DNA from: Myxococcales bacterium
GTDB taxonomy: Bacteria; Myxococcota; Myxococcia; Myxococcales; Anaeromyxobacteraceae
Length of the DNA: 64,000 nucleotides
Assembly: GCA_021806645.1 (NCBI GenBank)
Contig: JAJZQX010000004.1
Coordinates: 186,001 to 250,000, forward strand
Direction of reading: 5' to 3'
Under the pieces are notes generated by a model. The model was not told the origin of the DNA. It made no database searches and saw only the letters and a program-made list of their open reading frames with translations. Below, piece by piece: positions 54,132 to 64,000 of the stretch; position 1 is the stretch's first letter; every line of letters begins with the position of its first letter. A program made the translations under genes and the position numbers.

Positions 54132-55832
54132 ATGACGACCGACAACACGACCGAAGTGACCGCCTCGCCGCGCCGCCCCCGCCGCCTCCTCGGCTACGCC
54201 CTGGTGGCGCTCGCCAGCCTGGCGCTCGGCAGCGTGGGCACCTCCCTGCTCTCCCGCTCCGGCGGCGACGGGCACGATCACGGCACGGCGGCCGCCAAGG
54301 ACCAGTACCAGTGCCCGATGCACCCGACCATCGTCCAGGACCACCCCGGCGACTGCCCGATCTGCGGCATGAAGCTCGTCAAGATGGCGGGCGCCGCGCC
54401 AGGCGAGGCCGCCAAGCCGGCCGCGGCCGAGGCCAAGCCCCAGTACCAGTGCCCCATGCACCCGACGGTCGTATCGGACCACCCGTCCGACTGCCCGATC
54501 TGCGGCATGAAGCTCGTCAAGATGGCCGCGGCGGCGAAGGAGCCGTCCTCGCCGGCCGCCTCGGGCCAGGTCCAGTACCAGTGCCCCATGCACCCCAACG
54601 TCCACCAGGACAAGCCTGGCGACTGCCCGCTCTGCGGCATGAAGCTCGAGAAGCTCAACGAGAGCGGTGCCTTCGACGTGCCGCCGGGAGAGCGCAAGAT
54701 CGCCTTCTACCGCTCGCCCATGGACCCCAAGCAAACCTCGCACACGCCCCGCAAGGACGAGATGGGCATGGACTTCGTCCCGGTCTACCTCGACGAGCTC
54801 CAGGCGACTGGCTCGGTCTCCGGCCTGGTCACCGTGAAGATCGACCCGGCCCGGCAGCAGCTCATCGGCCTGGTGACCACCAAGGCCACCGAAGGCTCGA
54901 TCAGCGGCGCGCTCCGGACCACGGGGCGCGTGGCCGTCGACGAGACGCGTGTCCACAAGGTCAACGTGAAGTTCGGCGGGTTCGTCGAGACGGTCCAGGC
55001 CGACTTCGTCGGCCGGACCGTGCAGCGCGGTGAGCCGCTCTTCTCCATCTACAGCCCCGAGCTCCTGGCGGCCCAGGAGGAGCTCGTGCTCGCCCTCAAG
55101 ACCCAGCAGGACCTGTCATCGGCCAAGGGCCTCGTCGGCAACGGCGACGACCTGGTGGCCTCGGCGCGGCGCAAGCTCCAGTTGTGGGACGTCCCGGCCG
55201 CCACCGTCGCCCGCATCGAGCAGACCAGGCAGGCGGAGCGCACCGTGACCGTCACGTCCCCGACGGGCGGCGTGGTGGTCAAGAAGGAGATCGTCCCCGG
55301 CATGCGGATCGAGGCCGGCGGCATGCCGTACGAGATCTGGGACCTCTCCTCGATCTGGGTCCTGGCGGACGTCTACGAGACCGAGCTGCAGCAGGTGAAG
55401 GTGGGCAGCCCAGTCACCCTCACCCTGAAGGCCTTCCAGGGCAAGGAGTTCCAGGGCCGGGTCGCCTTCGTCGATCCCGTCCTCGATCCCAAGACCCGCA
55501 CCGCCAAGGTCCGCATCGCCGTGGCCAACCCAGGGGGGCTCCTCAAGCCCGAGATGTTCGGCGAGGTGGTCCTGGGCACGCCGTCACGGAAGGCGCTGCG
55601 CATCCCGACCGACGCGGTCATCGACTCCGGGACCCGCAGCGTCGTCTTCGTCGCGCTGGGAGACGGCAAGTTCCAGCCGCGAGTGGTCCGGCTCGGCGCC
55701 ACCGACGGCGACCAGATCGAGGTGCAGGACGGCCTGGCCGCCGGCGACCAGATCGTCACGCGGGCCAACTTCCTGGTCGACTCCGAGTCGCGCCTCAAGG
55801 CCTCCCTGCAGGCGCTCGGCGGGGGGAAGTAA
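54132..55832 (+). CDS. cusB: Periplasmic adaptor with three heavy-metal-binding domains (CusB-like)
   Basis: A 566-aa adaptor. One N-terminal helix (LLGYALVALASLALGSVGTS), a His motif (GDGHDHG), then three tandem HMBDs, each YQCPMHP...CPxCGMKL (about residues 59-82, 105-128, 149-172). A degenerate fourth (FYRSPMDP...DEMGMDFVPVY), standard for CusB, precedes the HlyD barrel-sandwich core (VHKVNVKFGGFVETVQADFV). Most CusB proteins have no or one HMBD; three would let the adaptor present several Cu/Ag ions to the pump. The pump gene follows after 3 nt. Confidence 0.92.
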   Translation: MTTDNTTEVTASPRRPRRLLGYALVALASLALGSVGTSLLSRSGGDGHDHGTAAAKDQYQCPMHPTIVQDHPGDCPICGMKLVKMAGAAPGEAAKPAAAEAKPQYQCPMHPTVVSDHPSDCPICGMKLVKMAAAAKEPSSPAASGQVQYQCPMHPNVHQDKPGDCPLCGMKLEKLNESGAFDVPPGERKIAFYRSPMDPKQTSHTPRKDEMGMDFVPVYLDELQATGSVSGLVTVKIDPARQQLIGLVTTKATEGSISGALRTTGRVAVDETRVHKVNVKFGGFVETVQADFVGRTVQRGEPLFSIYSPELLAAQEELVLALKTQQDLSSAKGLVGNGDDLVASARRKLQLWDVPAATVARIEQTRQAERTVTVTSPTGGVVVKKEIVPGMRIEAGGMPYEIWDLSSIWVLADVYETELQQVKVGSPVTLTLKAFQGKEFQGRVAFVDPVLDPKTRTAKVRIAVANPGGLLKPEMFGEVVLGTPSRKALRIPTDAVIDSGTRSVVFVALGDGKFQPRVVRLGATDGDQIEVQDGLAAGDQIVTRANFLVDSESRLKASLQALGGGK

Positions 55833-55835
55833 GCC

Positions 55836-58800
55836 ATGATCAAAGCCATCATCCGCTTCAGCGCGACCAACAAGTACCTGGTCGTCGCCGCCACCATGGT
55901 TGCCCTGGCGGGCGCTTGGTGGTCGATGAAGAACATCCCGCTCGACGCCCTGCCGGACCTCTCCGACACGCAGGTGATCGTCTACTCCAAGTGGGACCGG
56001 AGCCCGGACATCATCGAGGATCAGGTCACCTACCCGATCACCACCGCCCTGCTCGGCGCGCCGCGGGTCAAGGCCATCCGCGGCTTCTCGGACTTCGGCT
56101 TCAGCTACGTCTACGTCATCTTCGAGGATGGCACGGACATGTACTGGGCGCGGACCCGCGTCCTCGAGTACCTGTCCAAGATCCAGCCGCAGCTCCCGGC
56201 GGGCGTGACGACGGAGCTTGGACCGGATGCCACCAGCGTCGGGTGGGTCTTCCAGTACGCGCTGGTGGACAAGACTGGCACCCACTCGTCCGACGAGCTC
56301 CGCTCCTATCAGGACTGGAACCTGCGCTACGCCGTCCAGAGCGTGCCGGGCGTCTCCGAGGTGGCCACGGTGGGCGGGCAGGTCCGCCAGTACCAGATCA
56401 CGGTCAACCCCAACGCCCTCGCCTCCTACAAGCTCCCGCTCGAGAGCGTCATCAACGCCGTCCGGCGCGGCAACAACGACGTCGGGGGTCGGCTCGTCGA
56501 GCTCTCCGGCCGCGAGTACATGGTCCGCGGCCGCGGCTACGTGAAGACCCTGGCCGACCTCGAAAGCCTGGTCCTCAAGTCGGAGGGTGGCACCCCGGTC
56601 ACCGTGAAGGACGTGGCCACCGTGGCGCTCGGCCCGGAGATGCGCCGCGGCATCGCCGACTTCGACGGCCAGGGCGACGTGGTGGGCGGCATCGTGGTGA
56701 TGCGTTCCGGCGAGAATGCCCTCAACGTCATCAACCGGGTCAAGCAGAAGCTCGAGGACATCAAGCCCTCCCTGCCCAAGGGCGTCGAGGTGGTCACCAC
56801 CTACGACCGCTCCGAGCTCATCGACCAGGCCATCGAGACGGTGAAGGGGAAGCTCATCGAGGAGATCATCGTGGTCTCCATCATCATCCTTATCTTCCTC
56901 TGGCACATCCCGAGCGCCATCATCCCCATCGTCACCATCCCGGTGAGCGTGGCCCTGGCCTTCATCCCCATGTACTTCATGGGGCTCAACGCCAACCTCA
57001 TGTCGCTGGCCGGCATCGCCATCTCCATCGGCGTGCTGGTGGACGGGGCCATCGTGGAGGTGGAGAACGCCTACAACAAGATCCACCACTGGGACGCCGG
57101 GGGTCGAAAAGAGGACTTCCACCACGTGCGACTGGAGGCCCTGCTGGAGGTGGGGCCGGGGGTATTCTTCTCGCTGCTGGTCATCGCCGTGGCCTTCATG
57201 CCGGTCTTCACCCTGGTGGACCAGGAGGGGCGGCTCTTCCGGCCGCTCGCCTACTCGAAGAACCTGGCCATGGCCATCGCCGCGTTCCTGGCCATCACCC
57301 TCGACCCGGCCATGCGGATGATGTTCGCCCGCATCGACCCTTTCACGTTCAAGCCGCGCTGGGTGGCCAAGGTCGCGGACGCCGTCTTCGTCGGCAAGTA
57401 CCACTCGGAGGAGAAGCACCCCATCAGCGCCTTCCTCCACAAGATCTACGAGCCGCCCTGCCGCCTCGTGCTGCGCCACCCCAAGGCCACCATTGGCCTG
57501 GCCCTGCTGCTGGTGGCCACCACCGTCCCCGCCTACATGAAGCTCGGCTCCGAGTTCATGCCGCCGCTGCGGGAGGGGACCATCCTCTACATGCCCTCTG
57601 CTGTGCAGCCCGGCATGTCGGTCGCCGAGGCGCAGAAGGCGCTCCAGGTCCAGGACAAGATCCTGATGACCTTCCCGGAGGTGGAGCGGGTCTTCGGCAA
57701 GGCCGGCCGCGCGGCCACCTCGACCGATCCGGCCCCATTCACCATGATGGAGACCACCGTCATCCTGAAGCCGGAGCAGGAGTGGCGCGAGAAGCCGCGC
57801 TGGTACTCCTCGTGGGCCCCGGGCTGGAGCAAGTCCGTGCTCCGGTCGTTCTGGCGCGACCGGATCACCGAGGACGATCTCAAGAACGAGATGGACGCCG
57901 CATTGCAGCTGCCTGGCATCTCCAACGCCTGGACCATGCCCATCCGCGGCCGGCTCGACATGCTCTCCACCGGCATCCGCACCCCGGTCGGCATCAAGGT
58001 GAGCGGGGCGGATCTCAAGGTCATCGAGCAGACCGCCCAGGAGATCGAAGCGGTGGTGCAGAAGGTCCCGGGGACCCGCAGCGTCTACGCCGAGCGGGTG
58101 GCTGGAGGCTACTTCCTCGACTTCGTCCTCAAGCGCGACCAGCTTGCGCGCTACGGCCTCTCGGTCGACGACGCCAACATGATGGTCATGACCGCGGTCG
58201 GCGGCGACAACCAGACCACCACGGTCATGGGGCGCGAGCGCTACGGCGTGTCGGTCCGCTACGCCCGCGACTACCGCGAGGACCTCTCGGCCCTCAAGCG
58301 GGTCCTGCTTCCCCTGCCGAGCGGCCAGGGTCAGATCCCCATGGAGGAGATCGCCACCGTCGAGCTCGTGCAGGGGCCGTCGATGATCCGCGACGAGAAC
58401 GGCCTGCTGGCCGGCTACGTCTACGTTGACTTCGACACCTCCAAGATCGACGTCGGCAGCTACGTCGAGGAGGCCAAGAAGGCGGTCGCCACCGGCATCA
58501 AGCTCCCCACCGGCTACAACCTGGCCTGGAGCGGCCAGTACGAGAACATGCTGCGCGTGAAGGAGCGGCTCAAGCTCATCCTCCCGATCACGCTGGTGCT
58601 CATCTTCGCCCTCCTCTACATGAACACCAAGAGCGCGGTGAAGGCCTCCATCGTCATGCTGGCGGTCCCCTTCTCGGCCATCGGCGCCGTCTGGCTCATC
58701 TGGGCGCTCGGCTACAACGTCTCCATCGCCGTCTGGGTCGGCATGATCGCCCTCATGGGGCTCGACGCCGAGACCGGAGTGTTCATGCTGCTGTTCCTGG

Positions 58801-59117
58801 ACCTCTCCCACGACGAGGCCAAGGCGGCCGGCAAGCTCCGCGACGAGAAGGAGCTCATCGAGGCCATCATCCACGGTGCTGTGAAGCGCGTCCGCCCCAA
58901 GGCCATGACCGTCTTCGCGGCCATGATCGGCCTCTTGCCCATCATGTGGTCTACCGGCACCGGCGCCGACCTCATGAAGCGGATCGCCGCCCCCATGGTC
59001 GGCGGCCTCGTCACCAGCTTCCTCATGGAGCTGCTGGTCTACCCGGCCGTCTACTTCCTCTGGAAGCGGAAGGAGTTCACGAAGCCCACGCCGTCCGCCG
59101 ACCCCGTGACGGCCTGA
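55836..59117 (+). CDS. cusA: CusA-type copper/silver RND efflux pump
   Basis: A 1093-aa inner-membrane pump. N-terminal helix, the LDALPDLSDTQVIVYSKWD segment typical of CusA, two periplasmic loops, and the HME signature VDGAIVEVENAYNKIHHW near residue 400, which matches the CusA/SilA group. Several Met residues expected for a copper relay occur in the periplasmic cleft (e.g. FMPPLREGTILYMP and PAPFTMMETTV). Third gene of a sigma54-controlled operon. With the activator divergent, a copper/silver stress role is likely. Confidence 0.95.
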   Translation: MIKAIIRFSATNKYLVVAATMVALAGAWWSMKNIPLDALPDLSDTQVIVYSKWDRSPDIIEDQVTYPITTALLGAPRVKAIRGFSDFGFSYVYVIFEDGTDMYWARTRVLEYLSKIQPQLPAGVTTELGPDATSVGWVFQYALVDKTGTHSSDELRSYQDWNLRYAVQSVPGVSEVATVGGQVRQYQITVNPNALASYKLPLESVINAVRRGNNDVGGRLVELSGREYMVRGRGYVKTLADLESLVLKSEGGTPVTVKDVATVALGPEMRRGIADFDGQGDVVGGIVVMRSGENALNVINRVKQKLEDIKPSLPKGVEVVTTYDRSELIDQAIETVKGKLIEEIIVVSIIILIFLWHIPSAIIPIVTIPVSVALAFIPMYFMGLNANLMSLAGIAISIGVLVDGAIVEVENAYNKIHHWDAGGRKEDFHHVRLEALLEVGPGVFFSLLVIAVAFMPVFTLVDQEGRLFRPLAYSKNLAMAIAAFLAITLDPAMRMMFARIDPFTFKPRWVAKVADAVFVGKYHSEEKHPISAFLHKIYEPPCRLVLRHPKATIGLALLLVATTVPAYMKLGSEFMPPLREGTILYMPSAVQPGMSVAEAQKALQVQDKILMTFPEVERVFGKAGRAATSTDPAPFTMMETTVILKPEQEWREKPRWYSSWAPGWSKSVLRSFWRDRITEDDLKNEMDAALQLPGISNAWTMPIRGRLDMLSTGIRTPVGIKVSGADLKVIEQTAQEIEAVVQKVPGTRSVYAERVAGGYFLDFVLKRDQLARYGLSVDDANMMVMTAVGGDNQTTTVMGRERYGVSVRYARDYREDLSALKRVLLPLPSGQGQIPMEEIATVELVQGPSMIRDENGLLAGYVYVDFDTSKIDVGSYVEEAKKAVATGIKLPTGYNLAWSGQYENMLRVKERLKLILPITLVLIFALLYMNTKSAVKASIVMLAVPFSAIGAVWLIWALGYNVSIAVWVGMIALMGLDAETGVFMLLFLDLSHDEAKAAGKLRDEKELIEAIIHGAVKRVRPKAMTVFAAMIGLLPIMWSTGTGADLMKRIAAPMVGGLVTSFLMELLVYPAVYFLWKRKEFTKPTPSADPVTA

Positions 59118-60490: not shown

Positions 60491-60603
60491 GGCCCGGGGG
60501 GACCACGGGGCCGACCTGTTTGGGACCACCGGCCGCCCGGGGCCGCCCCTCGCCCTTGCGGTAGATTCAGGGCCTGGCAGCGTCACCCATGGAGAACGAC
60601 CAC

Positions 60604-60957
60604 ATGCACATCCGGAACATTCTCGCAGTGCTGGCCCTGACGTTCACCCTCGGCACCGGCGTCGCGCTCGCCGAGGAGGCCAAGGTCCCCGTCACGGCCG
60701 CCGACCACACGGCGATGGCGAAGAGCTACGCAGAGAAGGCCGCCACCTACCGGGCGGAGGCCGCCTACCACAAGCAGATGGCGGCGGCGTACGCCAAGGA
60801 GCACCCGGACCGGAAGAGCGGCGCCCGCAACCCCTGGACTGTTGAAATGGAGAAGCACTGCAAGGCCATCGTGAAGGACGCCGAGAAGCTGGCTTCCGAC
60901 GCGGAGTTCGCCGCCAAGTTCCACGAGGCCCACGCCAAGGAGCTGGAGGGCAAGTAG
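60604..60957 (+). CDS. DRKSG-family small exported protein, copy 1
   Basis: A 117-aa exported protein; GGAG lies 9 nt before the ATG at 60604. After the signal peptide (ending ALAEEAK) come VPVTAADH, two helical heptad-like segments (MAKSYAEKAATYRAEAAYHK; KELEGK at the end) and the conserved centre HPDRKSGARNPWTVEMEKHC with one Cys. Copy 2 at 62546 and a fragment at 22613 share this core. The many His, Lys and Glu residues suggest a helical periplasmic protein; function unknown. No sigma54 element was found here, so it may be read through from the cus operon 113 nt upstream. Confidence 0.75.
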   Translation: MHIRNILAVLALTFTLGTGVALAEEAKVPVTAADHTAMAKSYAEKAATYRAEAAYHKQMAAAYAKEHPDRKSGARNPWTVEMEKHCKAIVKDAEKLASDAEFAAKFHEAHAKELEGK

Positions 60958-60964
60958 GGGCGCC

Positions 60965-62239
<1,275 letters not shown>

Positions 62240-62331
62240 CGTCGGGTGTCCCAATCCTGCCACGCCTCCGGGTCGGGATGGCTCGGCATCGATGCACGGA
62301 GGCGCCGACGGCCCACCGACCTCTCGGCACC

Positions 62332-62545: not shown

Positions 62546-62905
62546 ATGACCCGCAATCCAGGCCGTTTCTTCGCCGCGCTCGCGCTCGCGCTGTCCCTCG
62601 TTGGCACCTCCGCGCGCGCCGAGGAGGCCAAGGTCCCCGTCACCGCCGCCGACCACATGGCCATGTCGAAGAGCTACTCCGAGAAGGCCGCCACCTACCG
62701 TGCGGAGGCCGCCTACCACAAGGAGATGGCCAAGGCGTATGCGAAGGCGCACCCGGACCGCAAGAGCGGCGCACGGAACCCGTGGACCGTCGAGATGGAG
62801 AAGCACTGCCGTGCCATCGTGAAGGACTCGGAGAAGCTCGCGGCAGACGCGGAGTGGGCCGCCAAGTTCCACGAGATGCACGCCCGGGAGCTGGAGGGCA
62901 AGTAG
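62546..62905 (+). CDS. DRKSG-family small exported protein, copy 2
   Basis: A 119-aa paralogue of the 60604-60957 protein, with AAGGAG before the ATG. From residue 25 on it is nearly the same protein (EEAKVPVTAADH, RAEAAYHKEMAKAYAK, HPDRKSGARNPWTVEMEKHC, MHARELEGK), while the signal peptides differ. Unlike copy 1 it has its own sigma54 promoter and palindrome, so the two copies are probably regulated differently. Function unknown. Confidence 0.78.
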   Translation: MTRNPGRFFAALALALSLVGTSARAEEAKVPVTAADHMAMSKSYSEKAATYRAEAAYHKEMAKAYAKAHPDRKSGARNPWTVEMEKHCRAIVKDSEKLAADAEWAAKFHEMHARELEGK

Positions 62906-62949: not shown

Positions 62950-62970
62950 TCATTCAAACATGCGTTTGAT
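62950..62970. promoter_or_regulatory. Probable ArsR operator at the repressor start
   Basis: CATTCAAACATGCGTTTGATG is read over these 21 bases in two parts: CATTCAAACA and TGCGTTTGATG. The TCAAAC/GTTTGA arms are perfect and the flanks nearly so. TCAAA...TTTGA symmetry is like the CadC/SmtB class of operators. It covers the ATG at 62960, indicating autorepression. Confidence 0.65.
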
Positions 62971-63355
62971 GAAGTCACGGAAGCGCCCGCCGGCCGCCCC
63001 CGCCTGCCTCGACCGCTGCAAGGTGCCCTGCTTCAAGGAGGAGGTCGTCGAGCGGGTCAGGCGCAGCCTGCCTCCCGACCTCGCGCTGGAGTCCGCCCGG
63101 GCCCTCTTCGCGGCCCTGGCGGACCGGACCCGCCTCCGCATCCTCCACGCGCTCCTGGGCGCCGACGAGCTGTGCGTCTGCGACGTGGCCCACGTGCTCG
63201 GGATGAGCGTCGCCGCCACGTCACACCACCTCCGCAAGCTCAGGCTGCTCGGCATCCTCGGCCTGAGGAACGACGGCAAGATGGCCTACTACTCGCTGCG
63301 GGATCGCTTCGCCGCCGAGCTCGCCACCCACGCGCTCCGCAAGCTCGCCGCGTAG
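62960..63355 (+). CDS. ArsR/SmtB-family metal repressor with CadC-like Cys site
   Basis: A 131-aa winged-helix repressor. Metal ligands are suggested by ELCVCDVAHVL (Cys72, Cys74) and an N-terminal Cys group ACLDRCKVPC (Cys16, 20, 24), the combination used by CadC for Cd/Pb/Bi. DNA-reading segment: MSVAATSHHLRKLRLLGIL. An operator-like palindrome overlaps its start. The MtrA-like gene begins 15 nt downstream, so that gene is probably its target. Confidence 0.9.
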   Translation: MRLMKSRKRPPAAPACLDRCKVPCFKEEVVERVRRSLPPDLALESARALFAALADRTRLRILHALLGADELCVCDVAHVLGMSVAATSHHLRKLRLLGILGLRNDGKMAYYSLRDRFAAELATHALRKLAA

Positions 63356-63370
63356 AAGAGGCACACCGCC

Positions 63371-64000
63371 ATGCTCGCGACACCTCACCCGGATCGAGCC
63401 GCGGCGCTGGCCATCGTGGCCGAGCAGCTCGAGGAGGGCATCGCGGCGAAGAAGTGCCACGCCTGCGGCTGCTTCCAGGCCGCCGTGGCCGCGTTCGAGG
63501 GGACCGCGCCGGGCCGCCACGAGCTCAGGAGCGCCCTCGAGCGCGCCCGCGGCGTGCTGACCCCGACGAAGTACGACTGCCTCGGCTGCCAGGTCTGCTA
63601 CCCGGCCGTCGCGGAGAACGCCTTCGCCGACGCCTTCCCCGGCGAGGCCATCGCGCCCCTCTGCCCCACCGACGCCCCGGCGGAGCGGCCGGGCTGGCCG
63701 CCGCTCCCCGGTGACTACCGGGTGGTCCGCTACGGCGCCCCGGTGGCGGTCTGCACGCTCAACTCCGCGGAGCTGGCCGGGACGCTGGCCGCTCGCGCGC
63801 CGGCCGGGCTCGCGCTCGCCGGGACGCTGCACACCGAGAACCTCGGGATCGAGCGCATCGTGCGAAACGTGCTCGCCAACCCCCACGTCCGCTTCCTCGT
63901 GGTCTGTGGCGAGGACACCCGCCAGGCCATCGGCCATCTCCCGGGCCAGTCGCTCGTGGCGCTCTGCGAGGGCGGCCTCGACGAGGCGGGGAGGATCCGC
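63371..64000 (+). CDS. MtrA-like corrinoid-type protein with ferredoxin-like Cys head (partial)
   Basis: 210 codons are visible and the frame runs off the window. Residues 25-80 hold a double Cys motif, CHACGC and CLGCQVC, suggesting iron-sulfur binding. From about residue 108 the sequence matches subunit A of tetrahydromethanopterin methyltransferase: WPPLPGDY, TLHTENLGIERIVRNVLANP, RFLVVCGE and AIGHLPGQS. His189 in GHLPGQS is at the position of the MtrA His that ligates cobalt. Bacterial relatives (DUF4346/MtrA-like) have no clear role. Control by a thiol-type ArsR repressor hints at metal or metalloid methyl transfer; speculative. Confidence 0.75.
   Translation, partial: MLATPHPDRAAALAIVAEQLEEGIAAKKCHACGCFQAAVAAFEGTAPGRHELRSALERARGVLTPTKYDCLGCQVCYPAVAENAFADAFPGEAIAPLCPTDAPAERPGWPPLPGDYRVVRYGAPVAVCTLNSAELAGTLAARAPAGLALAGTLHTENLGIERIVRNVLANPHVRFLVVCGEDTRQAIGHLPGQSLVALCEGGLDEAGRIR

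Follow-up and report, generated by a model that had tools for sequence, protein, structure and literature searches.

A likely corrinoid-binding MtrA-domain protein in a conserved, soft-metal-associated bacterial operon

The 64,000-nt window analysed here (G000:C8:186001-250000, from a Myxococcales bacterium) ends in an operon in which a thiol-type ArsR repressor is followed by a 386-aa protein that joins a seven-cysteine helical domain, an MtrA domain and a DUF4346 domain. Our best reading of this operon is a soft-metal response module that is conserved and has been scattered horizontally. ArsR-controlled soft-metal operons are of a known kind; the literature that we searched does not describe this effector for them. 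In about a dozen bacterial phyla, and on plasmids, soft-metal repressors precede this corrinoid domain, which is known from methanogenesis. As to activity, our tentative proposal, to which we give somewhat less than an even chance, is that a corrinoid protein induced by soft metals adds methyl groups to a metal or removes them from it.

Table 1 Features of the operon and its surroundings (plain ranges are window positions; L002 ranges are locus positions).
Feature	Position	Strand	Remarks
CusB/CusA-type RND pump genes	54132-59117		upstream of ArsR gene
Operator-like palindrome TCAAACATGCGTTTGA, 16 bp, perfect	62954..62969		overlaps arsR ATG
ArsR/SmtB repressor, CadC type, 131 aa	62960..63355	+	NF033788, 80.6 bits; phmmer matches to Lmo1102 and CadC
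MtrA-like protein, first 210 of 386 aa	63371..64000	+	gene runs off window; L002:3372-4532
CxxCxC motif (C29, C32, C34)	63455..63472	+	invariant or nearly so in relatives
CxxCxxC motif (C70, C73, C76)	63578..63598	+	invariant in relatives
Seventh invariant cysteine, C98	63662..63664	+	relatives alignment
MtrA domain, residues 107-266	63689..64000, continues past window	+	PF04208, E 3.5e-41
His189 codon	63935..63937	+	equivalent to cobalt-ligand His84 of MtrA
Thioredoxin-like gene, 140 aa, membrane-anchored	L002:4579-5001		3' of MtrA-like gene
CcdA/DsbD_TM gene, 224 aa	L002:4998-5672		after thioredoxin-like gene
ModA gene	L002:5767-6552		after CcdA/DsbD_TM gene

The original prediction, made from the letters of the window, had joined a CxxCxC/CxxCxxC head to an MtrA-like domain, and this architecture is borne out in the full product, whose stop lies at the position equivalent to 64531, 531 bases past the window edge. 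The MtrA domain scores 141.2 bits against PF04208, for which the curated cut-off is 25, and so belongs to that family. A search of PDB sequences matches it to 5l8x (E 4e-34), and Foldseek aligns it to the cobalamin-bound MtrA structure 5laa (E 1.3e-13, TM 0.86 by target length). Residues 285-363 match DUF4346 (PF14251, E 3.9e-16), a domain that is also C-terminal in the dihydropteroate-synthase-like family TIGR00284. The NCBIfam model NF002128, 'tetrahydromethanopterin S-methyltransferase subunit A', spans the whole protein at 508.6 bits, below its cut-off of 568; it describes the same family at full length under a name that comes from methanogens and omits the metal context. These profile and fold matches make the predicted domain plan well supported.

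The cobalt of MtrA is bound by His84, which Glu54 keeps in place, and Asn55 contacts the corrinoid (PMC4915002). All 43 relatives compared retain the equivalent residues of the 386-aa protein, H189, E156 and N157; His189, in the GHLPGQS segment where a retained cobalt ligand had been proposed, aligns with the ligand of the solved MtrA. The protein therefore likely binds a corrinoid, as far as these alignments tell. It shares with MtrA of the methyl-H4MPT:coenzyme M methyltransferase (PF04208, 5L8X, 5LAA) a homologous corrinoid domain of about 40% identity over 160 aa, including the His-on ligand, the TEN motif and the fold. In contrast to the methanogen protein, it has neither MtrB-H partners nor a membrane anchor, it adds the seven-cysteine head and DUF4346, and it is bacterial and metal-regulated; the meander motif reads GKRPxLKN here and GAIPFxEN in methanogens. 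We rejected assignment to the methanogen Mtr complex, given that the equivalog model TIGR01111 yields 134 bits against a cut-off of 249 and that no mtr genes are found at the loci. A methanogenesis or C1 context was likewise set aside, no such genes being present in the operons.

The head (residues 1-105) is modelled as an all-helical domain, with a block pLDDT of about 90 over residues 11-88. Both predicted motifs are there, as C29xxCxC34 and C70xxCxxC76, together with the invariant C98. Searches of Pfam, of PDB sequences and of PDB folds returned no match for this domain; in particular, no profile or fold match links it to a known Fe-S fold of the ferredoxin or CFeSP type, and a few ferritin hits are too weak (E >5) to carry meaning. 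The cysteines may hold an Fe-S cluster in a new fold. Many family members also carry a Cys-rich C-terminal tail, a CGC tail, and the copy on Planococcus plasmid pA30H1 (L086:7350-8729) has several additional cysteine repeats of CGC type, placed between its head and MtrA domain.

The repressor had been called thiol-type, and indeed its Cys20, Cys24, Cys72 and Cys74 align with the alpha3N soft-metal site of CadC. Its closest solved structures by phmmer are Lmo1102 (E 1.8e-20) and CadC (1u2w, E 2.5e-20), both with aligned cysteines; these relatives and the four-Cys site place it in the CadC type, and the site is retained in the type-A ArsR relatives. Such a site predicts that the window ArsR would be freed from DNA by Cd, Pb, Bi or Hg. 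The expected operator over the arsR start codon is also present: TCAAACATGCGTTTGA covers the ATG and, because it recurs at the same site in loci L004 and L005, is more than a chance palindrome. Proteobacterial type-A loci have an equivalent motif, ATCATTTTCG-N-CGAAATGA, at the same arsR-start position. The 15-nt gap reported between arsR and the next ATG is likewise correct (63356-63370). Some relatives use a second type of ArsR, recognised by KPxLxxRxLL...DPCV...GLCLxED, and TTACAT-N6-[AG]TGTAA is found upstream of 11 of the 23 genes of this type, compared with 0.6% in shuffles. These type-B genes (for example in L042, L047, L055 and L057) have an operator of their own. Regulator type and operators are well supported by the alignments and by the recurrence of the motifs.

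We scanned 84,980 species genomes and found about 60 bacterial relatives in about a dozen phyla, including Acidobacteriota, Pseudomonadota, Myxococcota, Nitrospirota, Chloroflexota and Thermodesulfobacteriota. Since the tree requires several changes between phyla, some horizontal transfer of the module is likely; mis-binning of MAGs is a possible contributor. In 48 of 61 loci the MtrA-like gene is preceded by an ArsR gene on the same strand, which directly abuts it in 29, and the loci that lack one mostly have CusA, a CDF pump, a MerR-type regulator, SMR or mer genes instead. When we looked within about 6 kb, ArsR or metal genes accompanied 24 of 25 full-length loci and 1 of 20 random 13-kb stretches, a contrast that is an upper bound, the seed proteins having come from the test loci and the controls from Myxococcota relatives. 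Genes for MerC-like proteins, mer functions, Cus pumps, P-type ATPases and SMR transporters recur around the family, and the metals vary by locus, with mer, ars, cus and cad-type genes all represented. A conserved metal regulator with transporters is what characterises a soft-metal resistance operon, and at the level of gene content these counts establish a metal neighbourhood for the family.

Individual loci give the same picture. A MerC-like gene is inserted between ArsR and MtrA in eight Gamma- and Zetaproteobacterial operons; the one product that we checked matches PF03203 (E 8e-11) and scores 38 bits against the NCBI MerC cut-off of 170. Paired SMR-type transporter genes are found in four operons (L026, L030, L031, L040), merR, merT, merC and merA lie beside the operon in L020, and merR, merC and merA do so in L028. 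On Planococcus plasmids, a single cassette encodes ArsR, a CopZ/MerP-like protein, a Cd/Pb-type ATPase and MtrA-DUF4346, and a Paraburkholderia plasmid copy adjoins a CadR/PbrR-like gene. The family thus resembles the mer operon (MerC, MerA, MerB) in having MerC-like genes inside eight operons and merA beside two loci; unlike mer, its core protein has no homology to MerB or MerA and its main regulator is a CadC-type ArsR, not MerR. With CadC/CadA cadmium-lead resistance it shares the four-Cys repressor and, in the Planococcus cassette, a Cd/Pb-type ATPase, but its effector goes beyond an efflux pump in being a corrinoid-type protein. The literature we searched contained no mention of DUF4346 and no paper joining MtrA to mercury or ArsR operons.

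Past position 64000, where partner genes had been expected to be informative, the operon continues with the thioredoxin-like and CcdA-like genes and then ModA; C1-metabolism genes are absent there. We looked for the outcome that would have counted against the original idea, a purely C1 context with no ArsR linkage, and found thioredoxin-like and CcdA-like genes downstream and ArsR linkage kept across phyla. The thioredoxin-like/CcdA-like pair lies 3' in 27 loci; the former has one conserved cysteine and the latter NPCC, CC and PCxTP motifs. The operon conserves neither a partner methyltransferase nor a reactivase for the corrinoid.

Corrinoid use by the hosts is broadly in place. CobS was found in 26 of 46 host genomes, and since this criterion alone is too strict we added B12-dependent MetH (35 of 46); 41 genomes have one or both and 5 have neither. 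The window's own genome has CobS. No cobalamin riboswitch was detected in the ten loci searched. MerA scores above cut-off in 15 and MerB in 5 of the 46 genomes, counts that have no matched baseline, and HgcA in 1. The window's genome has MerA only as a below-cut-off match, no HgcA match, and no MerB match in a search in which no control genome matched either. Given this distribution, the module is no mere appendage of mer or hgcAB, and with MerB in so few hosts we discarded a close link to merB.

We propose the following course of events. A CadC-type or second-type ArsR would repress the operon until a thiophilic metal of the Cd/Pb/Hg class releases it; the induced cytosolic protein would hold a corrinoid base-off/His-on in its MtrA domain, and the seven-Cys domain and C-terminal Cys tail would hold either the metal or a cluster that reduces cobalt to Co(I). 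A methyl group could then be moved between a metal-carbon bond and the corrinoid, and to or from a pterin, perhaps via DUF4346. The likeliest direction would be demethylation of a methylated soft metal, for example methylmercury, by an 'oxidative' route that bypasses MerB, after which neighbouring pumps or MerA would handle the freed metal; we favour it because MerC-like transporters, MerA and efflux pumps suit the release of inorganic metal inside the cell. We infer the methyl transfer, its direction and the metal from domains and neighbours. Several results given above speak against this proposal: the lack of a conserved methyltransferase or reactivase gene, the absence of a cobalamin riboswitch, the low MerC score, the variety of metals among loci, the small shares of hosts with MerA or MerB, and the five hosts with neither CobS nor MetH. 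We consider it unlikely that the operon is, specifically, the long-sought basis for demethylating methylmercury or a similar methylated metal without MerB (the 'oxidative' route), through a metal-induced MtrA-type corrinoid enzyme that passes methyl from metal to cobalt to pterin.

The same genes can be read in other ways. The known corrinoid metal-methylation pair, hgcAB, is commonly ArsR-controlled and likewise combines a corrinoid protein with a Cys-rich partner function (PMC10349881). The original interpretation is supported in part; its comparison with HgcA/HgcB stands at the level of logic, but the 386-aa protein is not HgcA: NF040863 is not listed for it up to E 1, its Cys domain is fused and unlike ferredoxin, and the hosts are mostly non-methylators. 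The two cobalt ligands differ as well, Cys in HgcA and His here. Methylcobalamin spontaneously methylates Hg(II), and the paired SMR genes of four operons could export a methylated or volatile product that might otherwise leave by diffusion; yet eight operons have a MerC-like, uptake-type gene instead, and HgcA is nearly absent from the hosts, so that HgcAB-like methylation of soft metals appears distinctly unlikely to us.

A role as soft-metal buffer or chaperone, in which the cysteines bind metal and pass it to the pumps and the MtrA domain has lost methyl transfer or makes no use of it, strikes us as somewhat unlikely. The seven invariant cysteines, the Cys-rich tails and the Planococcus plasmid form, with its several CGC-type repeats beside a CopZ-like protein and an efflux ATPase, would all fit it, but a mere buffer needs neither the invariant cobalt-ligand His nor its E/N pair, and the MtrA fold remains close to the cobalamin-bound structure. 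Quite improbable, in our estimate, is a metal-stress back-up of methyl metabolism, with the corrinoid protein moving methyls between pterins and thiols when soft metals inhibit thiol enzymes or the methionine synthase that depends on B12. In archaea, both MtrA and DUF4346 are associated with pterin/thiol methyl transfer, the genes downstream in 27 loci point to thiol redox, and most hosts have MetH; nevertheless, the operons contain no C1 or methionine genes, and such a role leaves the MerC-like, mer and ATPase partners and the plasmid metal cassettes unexplained.

One paper calls the oxidative demethylation of methylmercury 'mostly unknown' (PMC7591507). For this question, the operon supplies named genes, a point mutation (H189) and cultured hosts, namely Dechloromonas hortensis, Methylomonas methanica, Anaeromyxobacter oryzae and Planococcus with its plasmids. 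Should the methyl-transfer reading prove wrong, our analysis still corrects the methanogenesis-enzyme label that this family now bears, and it contributes a new cysteine domain as well as a second type of ArsR and the operator that goes with it.

Several further features vary among the loci. A V4R-domain protein (PF02830, related to the MsvR C-terminus) is encoded between ArsR and the MtrA-like gene in five loci from Acidobacteria and Methylomonas (L007:5044-5580, L013:5451-5912, L014:5484-5990, L018 and L061). In deltaproteobacterial operons (L041:3940-4892, L042, L046, L047, L053, L055, L062) other genes replace Trx/CcdA, either a small exported protein that has no Pfam match and a membrane protein (FLLPLAVFLGVAAAHY...), or FtsX/ABC transporter genes 3' of the MtrA-like gene. 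SAM methyltransferase genes, MduS-like or ArsM/UbiE-like, adjoin some operons (L021:2302-3003, L017:7511-8146, L033:162-776), and the pA30H1 copy adjoins an ISL3 transposase.

Upstream in the window, the CusB-like membrane-fusion protein (54132-55832) has three HMBD (heavy-metal-binding) repeats and is followed by the CusA-type RND pump. Two paralogous small exported proteins (60589-60957, which has no Pfam match, and 62546-62905) have much alike mature parts, and an uncharacterised minus-strand gene (60965-62263) lies between them. On the 3' side, near ModA and PstS-like genes, L002:10384-14392 encodes a molybdopterin oxidoreductase and its Fe-S subunit; tetrathionate reductase TtrA/TtrB is nearest, at scores far under the cut-offs. 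Tri-selenoprotein (Tso) systems, considered on account of weak ArsR and DsbD hits, were dismissed with scores far below cut-off. Finally, two host genomes have MerB homologues with an in-frame TGA (G232:C112:11520-11882 and G200:C148:6662-6910), which may be selenoprotein forms of MerB or broken genes.
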